From Notolepis coatsorum (lineage: Eukaryota; Chordata; Actinopteri; Aulopiformes; Paralepididae): DNA of 64,000 bases. Shown here piece after piece: positions 46,636 to 54,230 of the stretch (positions within the stretch are counted from its first letter, which is position 1; each line of letters begins with the position of its first letter). A program made the position numbers and the translations under genes. Where the stretch lies: assembly GCA_963971535.1 (NCBI GenBank), contig OZ020588.1:122330887-122394886 (forward strand). Direction: 5' to 3'. The notes beneath the pieces are model-generated. The model was not told the origin of the DNA and did not search any database. It worked only from the letters and a program-made list of their open reading frames with translations.

Positions 46636-47504
46636 CTTTTTTTTATTTTTTTAGCGATCTGAAATCATATTTCATCAACCGTGTCTACCGTTGGAAATTC
46701 AGCTACCTCAGGCGCTCAGATGTGAAAAAGCGCCCCCTATCGTCTCCCAGATGGTAATTCACCCTTTTGGATTGAACTCAATGAAAATGAATGAGAAAAA
46801 AAAACCTGCACTCCACATTTTACTTCTCACTCATGCTCAACCAATGCGTCTACCAGCTTCATGCTGGACTCTCGGAGCAGCGGGGAATATGTGTTTTACA
46901 GTAGGCCCTATACACAGTGGATCACTAAAAGGAGCGATTTTTTCGAATGGCGATCAGGAATTGGAATAATCCATTTGGATACCATCTGATCTCAGGTAAG
47001 GAATCTATGTTACCAGTCTAAGGATAATCACACCCCCCTGTTTTCACGGATATATACTGTAAGCTTTTATGTGATTATGTGATACCGCTGTTTGACTGTG
47101 CGCGCCGTCAGGAAATAGGAGACTAGATTTTCGGCTCGCCGCAAGAGCGTGCATGCGTACACATATGTGTCACCTCACAGCGCTTTGTGCCAGATCTCTA
47201 CATTTTCATTTTTCAGATTATTCCAGATTGCTAAAGTACAGAATCTAAGCTTTCAAATGATGTGTCATATGTTGAAATCTGAGAATGTTTTGAACACCAT
47301 GTGCCCAATTATAACTTCTAAAACTGGCTGTGTTCTAGATTACCTAAGAGGTGAAAAGGTGTCTCAAAGGAAGGCAACTTTTCACACTTCAGACAGTTTC
47401 AACTGGGCGTCAACAAACCCCCTCCAGCAACGCCCCTCACCTGAATAGCATTAACATAATTAAGTGCTGCCATGGCAGTTATCTCTCCTCAGGACCCGAT
47501 CTTC

Positions 47505-47578
47505 ATTCTCTTGTTTGTATTGAGCTGTACTGTATTGTGCCCATTCTGCAATCTGTTAATAACGTTTTCAATGCATAG
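47505..47578 (+). mobile_element. LINE-X 3' tail fragment
   Basis: TATTGAGCTGTACTGTATTG, then TGCAATCTGTTAATAACG. Only the last ~75 bp remain. Confidence 0.75.
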
Positions 47579-47759
47579 TAGTATAGACATTATTAGCATA
47601 GTAGGTAGTAGTAGTAAGATGGATACTAGTAAAAGATGGTATGAAGGTTAGTAGTTTCAGATATTAATTGAAGTTAATTTGGCTCGTCTTCTGCCAGCTT
47701 GTACAGACAGGAGCTTGACCTCGTTGACCTTAAGCACAAACCAAAGTGCTTTAATCAAA

Positions 47760-51500: not shown

Positions 51501-53375
51501 CCAGGCGGCTGTACCTCATGTCATGAAATAAATTAATAAATAACAAACACACATACCTGCTTCCTCCCCAGCAGGTTTGTATTGACGCCAGAGTGCCGCT
51601 TTTGTCAGATTGCTTGGAAGTAACTTGGCAGTGTAGTCTCTGTGGCCAGGATGTCTACCAGGCAAGACAATAGAATGGACCTCTGCATAATTGGTGAGAA
51701 AATCCACCACACGTTGACAGTCGTCTTTACAGAGAAACTTTTTGTGAGTTCTCGGTTGTTTTTTCCTATCACGTGGTGTCATTCCATTTGTCTTGTAGTG
51801 CTTGATAATAGCTTTGAGAAGTCCACAGCTTATCCTAAACAAAAAAAAATGTGAAATAATTATTACACACACATACACACAGTCCCTGCTAGCTAGAGCC
51901 AATGATAATGTCTTCAATACAGTCACGTGCTTTGCACTATATAGAATATTATTGTATAGTACTGTAGTTCTCTATAGTTCTCAAAGAACACCTACGGGAG
52001 ACTGCAATTCAAAACTGGCCCCTACAAATGTCAGTATTCCAATGTACAGCCCCACCCAACCCCACCCCACCTACCCAACCTCCTCCAATGTACAGTTTCT
52101 ATGTCAAATGTATGTGAGTATTCCAATGTACAGTGTCCCCCCCCTACCCACCCACCCCCCCCACATCCAATGTACAGCCCCACCCCACCTACCCAACCTC
52201 CCCAATGCACATGTTTCTATGTCAAATGTATATTTTTTAGTATCACAAACAGTACTGTATTTGAAAATCTGGTATGTCATAAATGTATAGATGTAGCAGT
52301 ACTGTCTATCTGTATGTTGTGTGTGTCATATGATGAATTGAAAATGGGGGACCCTGATGGAAACAAGACGAAAGTCTTTCTCAGGTCTGCATCCTCTTAA
52401 CAATTGTATGTATTGAGCTGTACTGTACTGTACCCATTCTGCAATCTGTTAATAAACTTAATCAATCAAGGGTCTGCTATGACATCACTACTATGACAAC
52501 ACAATTCAGAATGTTCCAGAATGTATACTAGCCTGTACTAACCGGTTCTACTGTGACATCACAATATGATTGCCATGACATTCATCTGAGTTTGTGCATA
52601 CTACTAGGATGTTACAAGCAGAATTACGTTTATTCTAATTGCGCGTCAAAAACGAGGATTTATCCCTCATAGTTACACATACACACAGAATAATAATGGC
52701 ACAGACTTACCCATGGAGAAAGCAGAATGTTGCCCGGCAGACCACGACGTTATGGAATCTGTACACTGTCCGTGAAGCTTTGCGAATGGTGTTTAATCGC
52801 TTCGTGCTTTGTGTGACTTCAGAATCATTGATGCCTGTTTGTATAGCCGAGAGCAGACACATGTCCCTCTCTTTCGGCGTCAATGAGGCCATGTCCAGCC
52901 TGCTATTGTATATCAATTCTTCCGACAGTTTTGTTGTACACGACAACGCCTGCCGTTCGGAATTCTCTTTCCGCTCTTTATAGCATTTGCAATCAAACGT
53001 TCTTATTTTTTTCAATTCTTCATTGGTGTCACTGTCTACGGTTACAACAGACATCATATCTGCGACATGTCTCATCGTTAATTCCGTTGAATAGCCCGGT
53101 GTGACGGTCCCGCTGTGAATAGAATCATCCTCTAAATCTGATTGATCCGCGCGCTCATCTTCCTCTTCAAAATCATCAGCGCGCTGCTGTATCGGATCGA
53201 TATCAGGCACTACTTCGTCATCCGAATCTTCTTCTTCTTCGGTTTGGGCGGTGGTTCGGGGACACCTGGGTGAAAAAAGTCCATTAAGTACCCATTCATT
53301 AAATGTGATCCATCGATGGCTCTTCCCGCAGCAGATATTTTGTTGAGTTCAGCAGCGATCGTCTTTGCATCCATC
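48245..53375 (-). CDS. Seven-exon transposase-like protein, 704 aa (HCDNCSGQNKNN family)
   Basis: Exons (minus strand): 53375-52711, 51834-51557, 50948-50614, 50417-50276, 50165-49867, 49153-49020, 48506-48245. All introns are GT-AG and phases agree, giving 705 codons with stop. The ATG at 53375 is the first after an in-frame stop. Residues ~40-80 are acidic; ~210-250 have CRATFCFLHGISCG and a basic helix-like segment, possibly DNA binding; ~345-355 have DLCWECYKNN. A candidate RNase-H-like core is D422 (HYSFDYAQQ), D501 (HCDNCSGQNKNN) and D543 (GHTKFGPDWCFGLIK). I recall similar proteins annotated DUF7869 in fishes and insects. The catalytic assignment is inference. It could be an active transposase or a retained host gene. 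Confidence 0.78.
48765..48893. repeat. (TAA)n microsatellite in intron 6
   Basis: About 40 TAA units between exons 7 and 6 of the transposase-like gene. Confidence 0.95.
49020..49153 (-). CDS. Transposase-like gene, exon 6
   Basis: Encodes VKGVNIPQLVGSEDGT, VFVRSYDWQQHLGGFF and KYQHF; donor GTAATTGT. The acceptor is the AG at the very end of a LINE-X tail (TTTTCAATCAATCAATCAG), so this splice site is partly or wholly LINE-derived. Confidence 0.72.
49154..49205 (-). mobile_element. LINE-X 3' tail abutting exon 6
   Basis: The last ~52 bp of LINE-X (minus strand TGTACCCATTCTGCAATCTG, then TTAATAAC and CAAT repeats) end directly at the 3' splice site of exon 6. Confidence 0.75.
49397..49523. 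repeat. (TG)n microsatellite in intron 5
   Basis: A TG run; a shorter one follows at 49704-49733. Confidence 0.95.
49867..50165 (-). CDS. Transposase-like gene, exon 5 (core motif)
   Basis: Acceptor TTCCCATTACAG, donor GTAACCTA. Encodes the family signature HCDNCSGQNKNN followed by WYCAWRTLH and GHTKFGPDWCFGLIK. This is the most diagnostic exon. Confidence 0.85.
50276..50417 (-). CDS. Transposase-like gene, exon 4
   Basis: Acceptor TTCTTCCGGCAG, donor GTAAGAGA. Encodes VHYPSHPLQVGPMYFATP, KCGLFGVHCEG and LIDEGMAMSKG. Phase 0 in, phase 1 out. Confidence 0.8.
50614..50948 (-). CDS. Transposase-like gene, exon 3
   Basis: Acceptor TTTTATTCTAG, donor GTGAGAAT. Encodes LLPQITIIKPRTDLCWECY, a Leu/Gln/Lys-rich probable coiled-coil (KLQTEKLQVQLQHLARVKRE) and the HYSFDYAQQ end, which may carry the first catalytic Asp. 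Confidence 0.8.
50963..51330. repeat. 133-bp tandem repeat in intron 2, about three copies
   Basis: TAATAGTACACATTACATAT begins units at 50963, 51096 and 51229, an exact 133-bp step. Copies are nearly identical and non-coding. Confidence 0.92.
51557..51834 (-). CDS. Transposase-like gene, exon 2
   Basis: Acceptor TTTTTTTGTTTAG, donor GTATGTGT. Encodes ISCGLLKAIIKHYKTNG, KKFLCKDDCQRVVDFL and LWRQYKPAGEEA. Phase 2 in, phase 1 out. Intron 1 contains a LINE-X 3' fragment in the opposite orientation. Confidence 0.78.
51970..52470 (+). mobile_element. LINE-X 3' part in intron 1
   Basis: AAAGAACACCTACGGGAGAC (RT C-terminal end), C-rich stretches, then AATGGGGGACCCTGATGGAA and TGCAATCTGTTAATAAAC. 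It is antisense to the transposase-like gene. Confidence 0.8.
52711..53375 (-). CDS. Transposase-like gene, exon 1
   Basis: Starts MDAKTIAAELNKN, continues with acidic EEEEDSDDE and FEEEDERADQSDLEDD, then CKCYKERKE and ASLTPKERDMCLLSA. Ends at CATGG before GTAAGTCTG (phase 2). Confidence 0.75.
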
Positions 53376-54230
53376 TCTCAATCTCAACGCAAGACACATT
53401 AAAAGTGTCACCAGATGCCAACAGGTGTATGTATAGGTCTTGTGGGCATTGCGCTGCGGGCTGGCTACCCCCCCAAGGTTTAGATTCGATTCAAATGCAA
53501 ATAGTTATTACGCCCCCGTTCCACTGAAATCATGTCGTGAACAGCCTACTTTTAAACAAAGGTTGTTACTATTTTTAAATATTCTAACTGTTCGTTTTTA
53601 TAGTATATATGTGCTTATACATTCAATTTATAATAATATATATAAAAAAAAAAGACAAAAAAAAAAAAAAAAAACGTTTTCACGTCTAGACGAGAAGGGG
53701 GCGGGCCGAGTTGTGGTCAGTAGCACTGCCAGGTGACACATATACTATCAATAATCTAGCGTTTATTTGAAAACGATTCATAAATAGGCCGAAAAATGAC
53801 AACGTTCTAGAATATTCCAGGAAAAGGCGATTATCAGGGAATCTCTTCTTTTTTCCGTGAAACCGAGTGCTTTTCAGAATGGTAGAAAACGGAAATGAAC
53901 CGATAAAAAACAATCTGCTACGACAATGTTGACTGGAAAATGAGTCTTTGATAAGCGACAGGCAGATTAGACACAAACCATAATTTTAAACATAGATTAG
54001 GCGATATTAACACTAACATTGAAGTGGCCCTGGGCATTCAAGGGACTAATAATGAATTAAACTTGGGCAGTGAAAGTGTTAAAGTGTCTAAAGTGAGTGT
54101 TATGGTGAGTGTTTGTTTAAAAGTGAGTGTGTGCATGTGGATGTGTGTGCAATGAGTGTAGATGATGGGTTGTTACATGGAGTCATTGAGCATCCTGATG
54201 GCCAGAAGATCCTTCCGAGTCTCTCTGTAC

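Follow-up and report, generated by a model that had tools for sequence, protein, structure and literature searches.

A young cut-and-paste DNA transposon of Notolepis coatsorum whose DUF7869 protein is a likely DDD transposase, most likely of the Sola lineage

We analyzed a 64,000-nucleotide stretch of the Notolepis coatsorum genome (contig OZ020588.1, positions 122,330,887 to 122,394,886; hereafter, the window), in which an element of 6573 bp carries a gene for a protein with the DUF7869 domain. We consider it quite likely that this element is a copy of a young cut-and-paste DNA transposon, that its own DUF7869 protein is a transposase of the DDD type (three catalytic aspartates, Asp), and that its lineage is most likely Sola, namely Sola2. 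At the level of sequence, the ends, the target duplication, the multi-copy spread, a coding-like substitution pattern and the conserved Asp residues can be observed; the ribonuclease H (RNase-H)-like fold of the protein is a prediction only. The element and its insertion site are defined by the following features.

47167..53739, no strand assigned: whole DNA transposon, 6573 bp, delimited by its ends and by near-full-length genome matches to its end segments
47163..47166, plus strand: left target duplication ATAT, from the flank sequence
53740..53743, plus strand: right target duplication ATAT, from the flank sequence
47167..47184, plus strand: left terminal inverted repeat (TIR), from the end comparison
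53722..53739, minus strand: right TIR, matching the left TIR at 15 of 18 positions
3984..4902, plus strand: uninterrupted paralogue of the host TTAA element, from alignment, serving as the empty-site reference

At the left border, ATAT is followed by GTGTCACCTCACAGCGCT, and at the right border the inverted GTGTCACCTGGCAGTGCT is followed by ATAT; the 18-bp TIRs are imperfect. When the two flanks are joined with a single ATAT, they align to the paralogue at 3984-4902 with 76% identity overall and with an ungapped junction. By this ungapped alignment, the window element is an insertion into an older TTAA element, with a 4-bp target duplicated. The terminal repeats, the ATAT flanks and the nested position had all been described in an earlier note on this DNA, made from the sequence alone, and the letters bear this description out; the paralogue, used as an empty site, fixes the length of the duplication at 4 bp. 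The paralogue is itself bounded by TTAA, and by its target the host element appears piggyBac-like. A TTAA-bounded element with CACTTT...GCCAC-like ends occurs twice in the window, at 3984-4902 and at about 46637-54020, where it is split by the transposon.

The window alone proves little, since matches to the ends within it stay at the chance level. The end-pair pattern was built from both element ends, and its two perfect matches are therefore obtained by construction. With three mismatches allowed, there are 3 matches versus 1.11 expected, and 10 of 100 shuffles reach 3; no further copy was found inside the window, the sole extra match (at 57944, with three mismatches) being at the chance level. 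We therefore turn to the genome (3.42 Gb searched; the window lies on its contig C9). The 25-bp left terminus is found without mismatch at 175 sites, compared to 0 for the reversed control, and 162 of these 175 sites (93%; control 0) have AWWT directly in front. For the left 474 bp, there are at least 42 genome matches, of which 40 cover at least 452 bases with 93-100% identity (best 40 of 2884 candidates); for the right 460 bp, there are at least 40 matches with 94-100% identity (best 40 of 617 candidates), the window being included in both counts. Thus, other loci share these ends around the gene family, in at least 40 near-full-length end matches, and the earlier proposal of a DNA transposon is upheld by multi-copy ends and AWWT target duplications.

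Target duplications were counted in 31 loci, i.e., 11 of the window family (ten fetched loci and the window copy) and 20 of two other families, A and B, described below; both ends were found in 21 loci, which span 4.0-6.8 kb. Five window-family loci have both ends, and three of them (the window, L032 and L033) have ATAT on both sides. Two loci, L029 and L030, contain head-to-tail window-family copies; at the inner junctions, neighboring copies are separated by one base only, with no 4-bp duplication.

The same genome contains further elements with this protein domain. A DUF7869 profile has at least 150 matches in the genome (best 150 of 639 candidates) and none in 14 control genomes. Ten loci were fetched for each of families A and B, and 4 of these 20 have no recognised end; the borders of family A were drawn from L011, and L009 is an outlier locus. 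The ends of family A (GTGACGTGCTC...) and of family B (GTGACTCGCC...) are both unlike the window-family TIRs. Nevertheless, among the loci with both ends, all 7 of family A and 8 of the 9 of family B (together 15 of 16) have a perfect 4-bp duplication, which is always ATAT, AAAT or ATTT. The A and B proteins share 34-55% identity with the window protein, counted by segment (one or two loci per family). With other TIRs and the same AWWT duplication, these sequences indicate that the choice of target follows the protein family and is not bound to a particular pair of ends.

The gene lies on the minus strand, and its exons and the codons of the proposed catalytic residues are listed below. The numbering of Asp residues follows a 667-residue reading, and the codon positions were obtained by arithmetic from the exon coordinates.

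52711..53374, minus strand: exon 1, frame broken here by a short deletion; reading intact in 4 of 4 siblings examined
51557..51834, minus strand: exon 2, from the spliced reading
50614..50948, minus strand: exon 3, from the spliced reading, with the proposed first catalytic Asp
50276..50417, minus strand: exon 4, from the spliced reading
49867..50165, minus strand: exon 5, from the spliced reading, with the proposed second and third catalytic Asp
49020..49153, minus strand: exon 6, from the spliced reading
48245..48506, minus strand: exon 7, from the spliced reading, with the stop codon
50626..50628, minus strand: codon of Asp 385 (HYSFDYAQQ), proposed first catalytic residue, from the homologue alignment; strand 1 of the model
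50083..50085, minus strand: codon of Asp 464 (CDNCSGQNKNN), proposed second catalytic residue, from the homologue alignment
49957..49959, minus strand: codon of Asp 506 (GHTKFGPDWCF), proposed third catalytic residue, from the homologue alignment

The seven exons are joined across six GT-AG introns, and the spliced reading is free of stops between 53265 and the terminal stop codon, whose last base is 48245. This part of the earlier gene description stands, whereas the intact 704-codon gene that it also claimed is ruled out. The ATG at 53374 opens a peptide that resembles homologue N-termini, but this peptide meets a stop after 54 codons and its frame differs from that of the remaining exons; the exon lengths from this ATG total 2114 nt, which is no multiple of 3. 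Four sibling copies were examined, and all of them read through from this ATG; relative to them, the window copy has lost a short stretch there, and this deletion shifts the frame. A 26-nt GT-AG "intron" joining the two frames was rejected as well: siblings read through the same stretch, and 26 nt is too short for a credible intron. By its sequence, the window copy's gene is therefore frame-broken, with a product of 667 residues downstream of the break, and this copy would depend on the transposase of other copies.

The substitution pattern among copies appears coding-like. In comparisons of the window copy with nine siblings, silent differences per site (pS) exceed amino-acid differences per site (pN) in eight; for example, pS is 0.038 and pN 0.006 for L033, and 0.139 and 0.027, respectively, for L038. 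It should be noted that the closest sibling copies have too few changes for such a pattern to be read. Eight of the nine siblings are stop-free across the 264-664 codons compared. The second intron contains a 133-bp unit in three tandem copies (about 50962-51335; starts at 50962, 51095 and 51228), and GT and TAA simple-repeat tracts are found at 48053-48149, beyond the stop codon, and in introns at 48789-48890 and 49420-49521.

The 667-residue product matches Pfam PF25273 (DUF7869) with E 7.3e-15 and 55.5 bits, compared to a curated cut-off of 26, in agreement with the domain name given in the earlier note. From 240 homologues taken, 224 were readable, and the three Asp are kept in 221, 224 and 222 of them, with the spacing of 79 and 42 residues fixed in 222. 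In the RNase-H-like model, the first Asp lies on strand 1, the second where strand 4 ends, and the third at the following helix or immediately ahead of it, and structure comparison suggests that the modelled core resembles DDE/D integrases and transposases. The earlier suggestion of an RNase-H-like DDE/D transposase thus agrees with the predicted fold and the fixed-spacing Asp. A sequence search against solved structures gave no match to the protein.

The three best homologues of the window gene are fish proteins. Among the 120 of 433 relatives listed, every one with an organism name is an animal protein, and nearly all of these are called "uncharacterized" or "hypothetical". The closest named homologue among those listed (P0001, Salvelinus) has Gly, not Asp, at the first proposed catalytic position and, judging by this residue, may be an inactive or domesticated copy. 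No DUF7869 relatives were found in viral contigs or in plasmids. In the literature searched, we found no mention of DUF7869 or PF25273, nor of the core motif strings; DUF7869 is likewise unmentioned in the available portions of PMC9033089, PMC5753468, PMC4455052, PMC3985635, PMC10294476, PMC12477816, PMC9587614, PMC8230255, PMC3706591 and PMC9297572.

Relatives of the protein are found in bacteria, too. A profile scan of prokaryote genomes yielded 12 DUF7869 loci; in the isolate Desulfocicer vacuolatum, the gene has neighbors of bacterial type, namely genes for a sigma-54 activator, for acyl-CoA dehydrogenases and for an AMP-binding enzyme. Eight of ten bacterial loci read have stop-free frames of 577-668 codons (stop to stop; that of L043 reaches a contig edge), and two are shorter. 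These relatives are full-length: the profile of 14 animal proteins matches that of 10 bacterial ones, from sets without overlap, along 563 columns (probability 100, E 1.9e-150). A protein search with the bacterial protein as the query found 551 relatives, and 118 of the 120 listed have the DUF7869 domain, most of them without an organism name. In the tree, bacteria fall outside the animal group (support 99/98 for the group of 25 rows from animals and the window genome, among them unnamed metagenome rows). The tree also pairs a Pholidichthys (fish) protein with a Patella (limpet) protein, with support 99/96, which hints at horizontal transfer. One bacterial protein, P0138 of Candidatus Magnetoglobus, is named "chaperonin" in NCBI, apparently a misannotation.

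In six bacterial loci (L039, L040, L041, L042, L044 and L046), a single open reading frame (ORF) of 635-668 codons lies between clear inverted repeats of 15-61 bp (a mismatch-limited count) that start with GG, making elements of 2.06-2.72 kb. AWWT is present in 11 of their 12 four-base flanks, compared to a background of 3.7%, with the boundary taken as the outermost shared GG, a definition set after viewing the data. Outside this count are L043 (contig edge, no repeat), L045, L047 and L048 (no convincing repeat), and L049 and L050 (unscanned); L047 and L050 come from a sponge-symbiont metagenome-assembled genome and may be host DNA.

Taken together, the multi-copy ends, the AWWT duplications, the modelled fold, the fixed-spacing Asp and the bacterial one-ORF elements make it very likely that DUF7869 is a DDD transposase. 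In the mechanism that we propose by analogy with other DDE/D enzymes that have this fold, the DUF7869 enzyme would bind both GTGTCACC ends, and the three Asp on the RNase-H-like core would be used to cut the element out. The cut ends would then be joined to the two strands of an AWWT target at points 4 bp apart, a stagger shown by the 4-bp duplications, and gap repair would leave the duplication of ATAT.

With regard to the lineage, Sola reportedly comprises three groups that hardly resemble other transposases. According to PMC10741241, Sola has a DDD transposase, a 4-bp target-site duplication (TSD), TIRs of 11-1124 bp and mostly a length of 2-9 kb, and it occurs in bacteria and metazoans; in social amoebae, the TSDs of Sola2 elements are of the form AWWT, with ATAT, AAAT and ATTT among them (PMC3627910). 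The elements studied here have a 4-bp TSD in 15 of 16 A and B loci and in 3 of 5 window-family loci with both ends, and three conserved Asp that would be catalytic in a modelled RNase-H-like core. The length of the window copy and its 18-bp TIRs lie within the published ranges, the proteins come from animals and from bacteria including the isolate D. vacuolatum, and the AWWT target is seen at the 162 left termini as well as in families A and B. The element lineage is thus most likely the Sola superfamily, Sola2 type, a name given by published features only, and its earlier description as an unplaced family is doubtful. The uninformative Pfam name probably hides a superfamily that is already known. 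The bacterial DUF7869 elements may add a further eukaryote-prokaryote pair to those named, without Sola, in PMC5718144.

Several observations weigh against this interpretation. Thirteen of the 175 exact left termini are not preceded by AWWT, and two of the five window-family loci with both ends (L029 and L030, tandem arrangements) have no simple TSD. Compared to the window copy, L031 has no silent and four amino-acid changes, and L038 carries two stops in the codons compared. The modelled core is like those of DDE/D integrases and transposases, but no Foldseek match is below E 1e-3. For the whole-protein model, NurA and a terminase head the Foldseek list and Mos1 is in fifth place, and Argonautes, which are likewise RNase-H-like, rank high for the modelled core. 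Only two of the six bacterial elements have identical 4-bp flanks on both sides. Finally, the Sola name is a match by features and not by protein sequence.

It is rather doubtful that DUF7869 elements instead form a separate DDD superfamily, one that the Repbase list does not contain and that has a bacterial insertion-sequence branch. DUF7869 is unnamed in the literature searched, full-length bacterial elements exist, and Sola is missing from the eukaryote-prokaryote superfamily pairs ("at least six", including Zator with ISAzo13) in the passage of PMC5718144 that names them; these points favor a separate superfamily, whereas the 4-bp TSD, the Sola2-like AWWT, the DDD residues, the size, the TIR length and the occurrence in bacteria and metazoans are all features of Sola. 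We also hold it doubtful that animals and bacteria share, in the DUF7869 elements, a DDD superfamily off the Repbase list that targets AWWT and keeps a D-79-D-42-D core across domains of life; if this were true, a further eukaryote-prokaryote pair would be added, and a widespread domain of unknown function would become a transposase.

Weak profile matches raise the question of whether the ISAzo13/Zator group has its eukaryotic branch in DUF7869, a relationship that we regard as very unlikely. PF07592 is matched by 10 of 70 homologues (best E 0.0013), and the NCBIfam ISAzo13 model by 1 of 30 (0.032). Ten members of homologue alignment A2, scanned singly, had no PF07592 match; the ten matching homologues thus lie among the other 60 of the 70. 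The comparison of the DUF7869 profile with a profile made from only three ISAzo13 proteins was not significant (probability 2.7%, E 0.017), and the ISAzo13 proteins seen have the glutamate of NPIE where DUF7869 has the aspartate of GHTKFxPD.

That DUF7869 is a passenger or a captured host gene, with another protein moving the element, is highly improbable. Transposons may carry such genes, e.g., Fanzor in Sola2 elements (PMC3627910), but the DUF7869 gene is present in three families of this genome and in six bacterial elements, the compact bacterial elements leave little room beyond their ORF, and the modelled fold is integrase-like. A host gene lying between chance repeats, which the window view alone would allow, is already refuted by the 175 exact termini against none in the control, the empty paralogous site and the AWWT before 162 termini.

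With a DUF7869 transposase of most likely Sola2 type, a Pfam domain of unknown function gains a likely function, and "uncharacterized" gene models can be checked as transposons. The genome supplies young families in which many copies are nearly identical, and bacteria supply compact relatives of a single gene with the same kind of target; these simple bacterial elements are the easiest setting for testing the chemistry and solving the structure of such enzymes.

Among known systems, the elements resemble Sola2 in the DDD residues, the 4-bp AWWT target, the short imperfect TIRs and the presence in bacteria and metazoans (PMC10741241 and PMC3627910); the likeness is one of published description. 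Some DUF7869 members share weak Pfam and NCBIfam matches with ISAzo13/Zator. The hAT, P, MuDR, Kolobok and Dada group has C/DxxH between the second and third catalytic residues, as stated in PMC9587614; these letters are found there in only 8 of 224 homologues, and membership in this group was rejected. Like piggyBac and Kolobok, the elements have a 4-bp target and a DDD/E enzyme, but the target of those two is TTAA (PMC9587614 for Kolobok and PMC7351741 for piggyBac), and here it is ATAT, AAAT or ATTT. The modelled core is RNase-H-like, as in Mos1/mariner, SETMAR and retroviral integrases, with Asp at equivalent strand-helix places; in contrast to these, the third residue is the Asp of GHTKFxPD, identity is 8-13% among the matches listed, and the TA target of mariner is replaced by a 4-bp AWWT. 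The window protein is a member of PF25273, for which Pfam gives no function; the present data connect this domain with the ends of a transposon and with a duplicated target.

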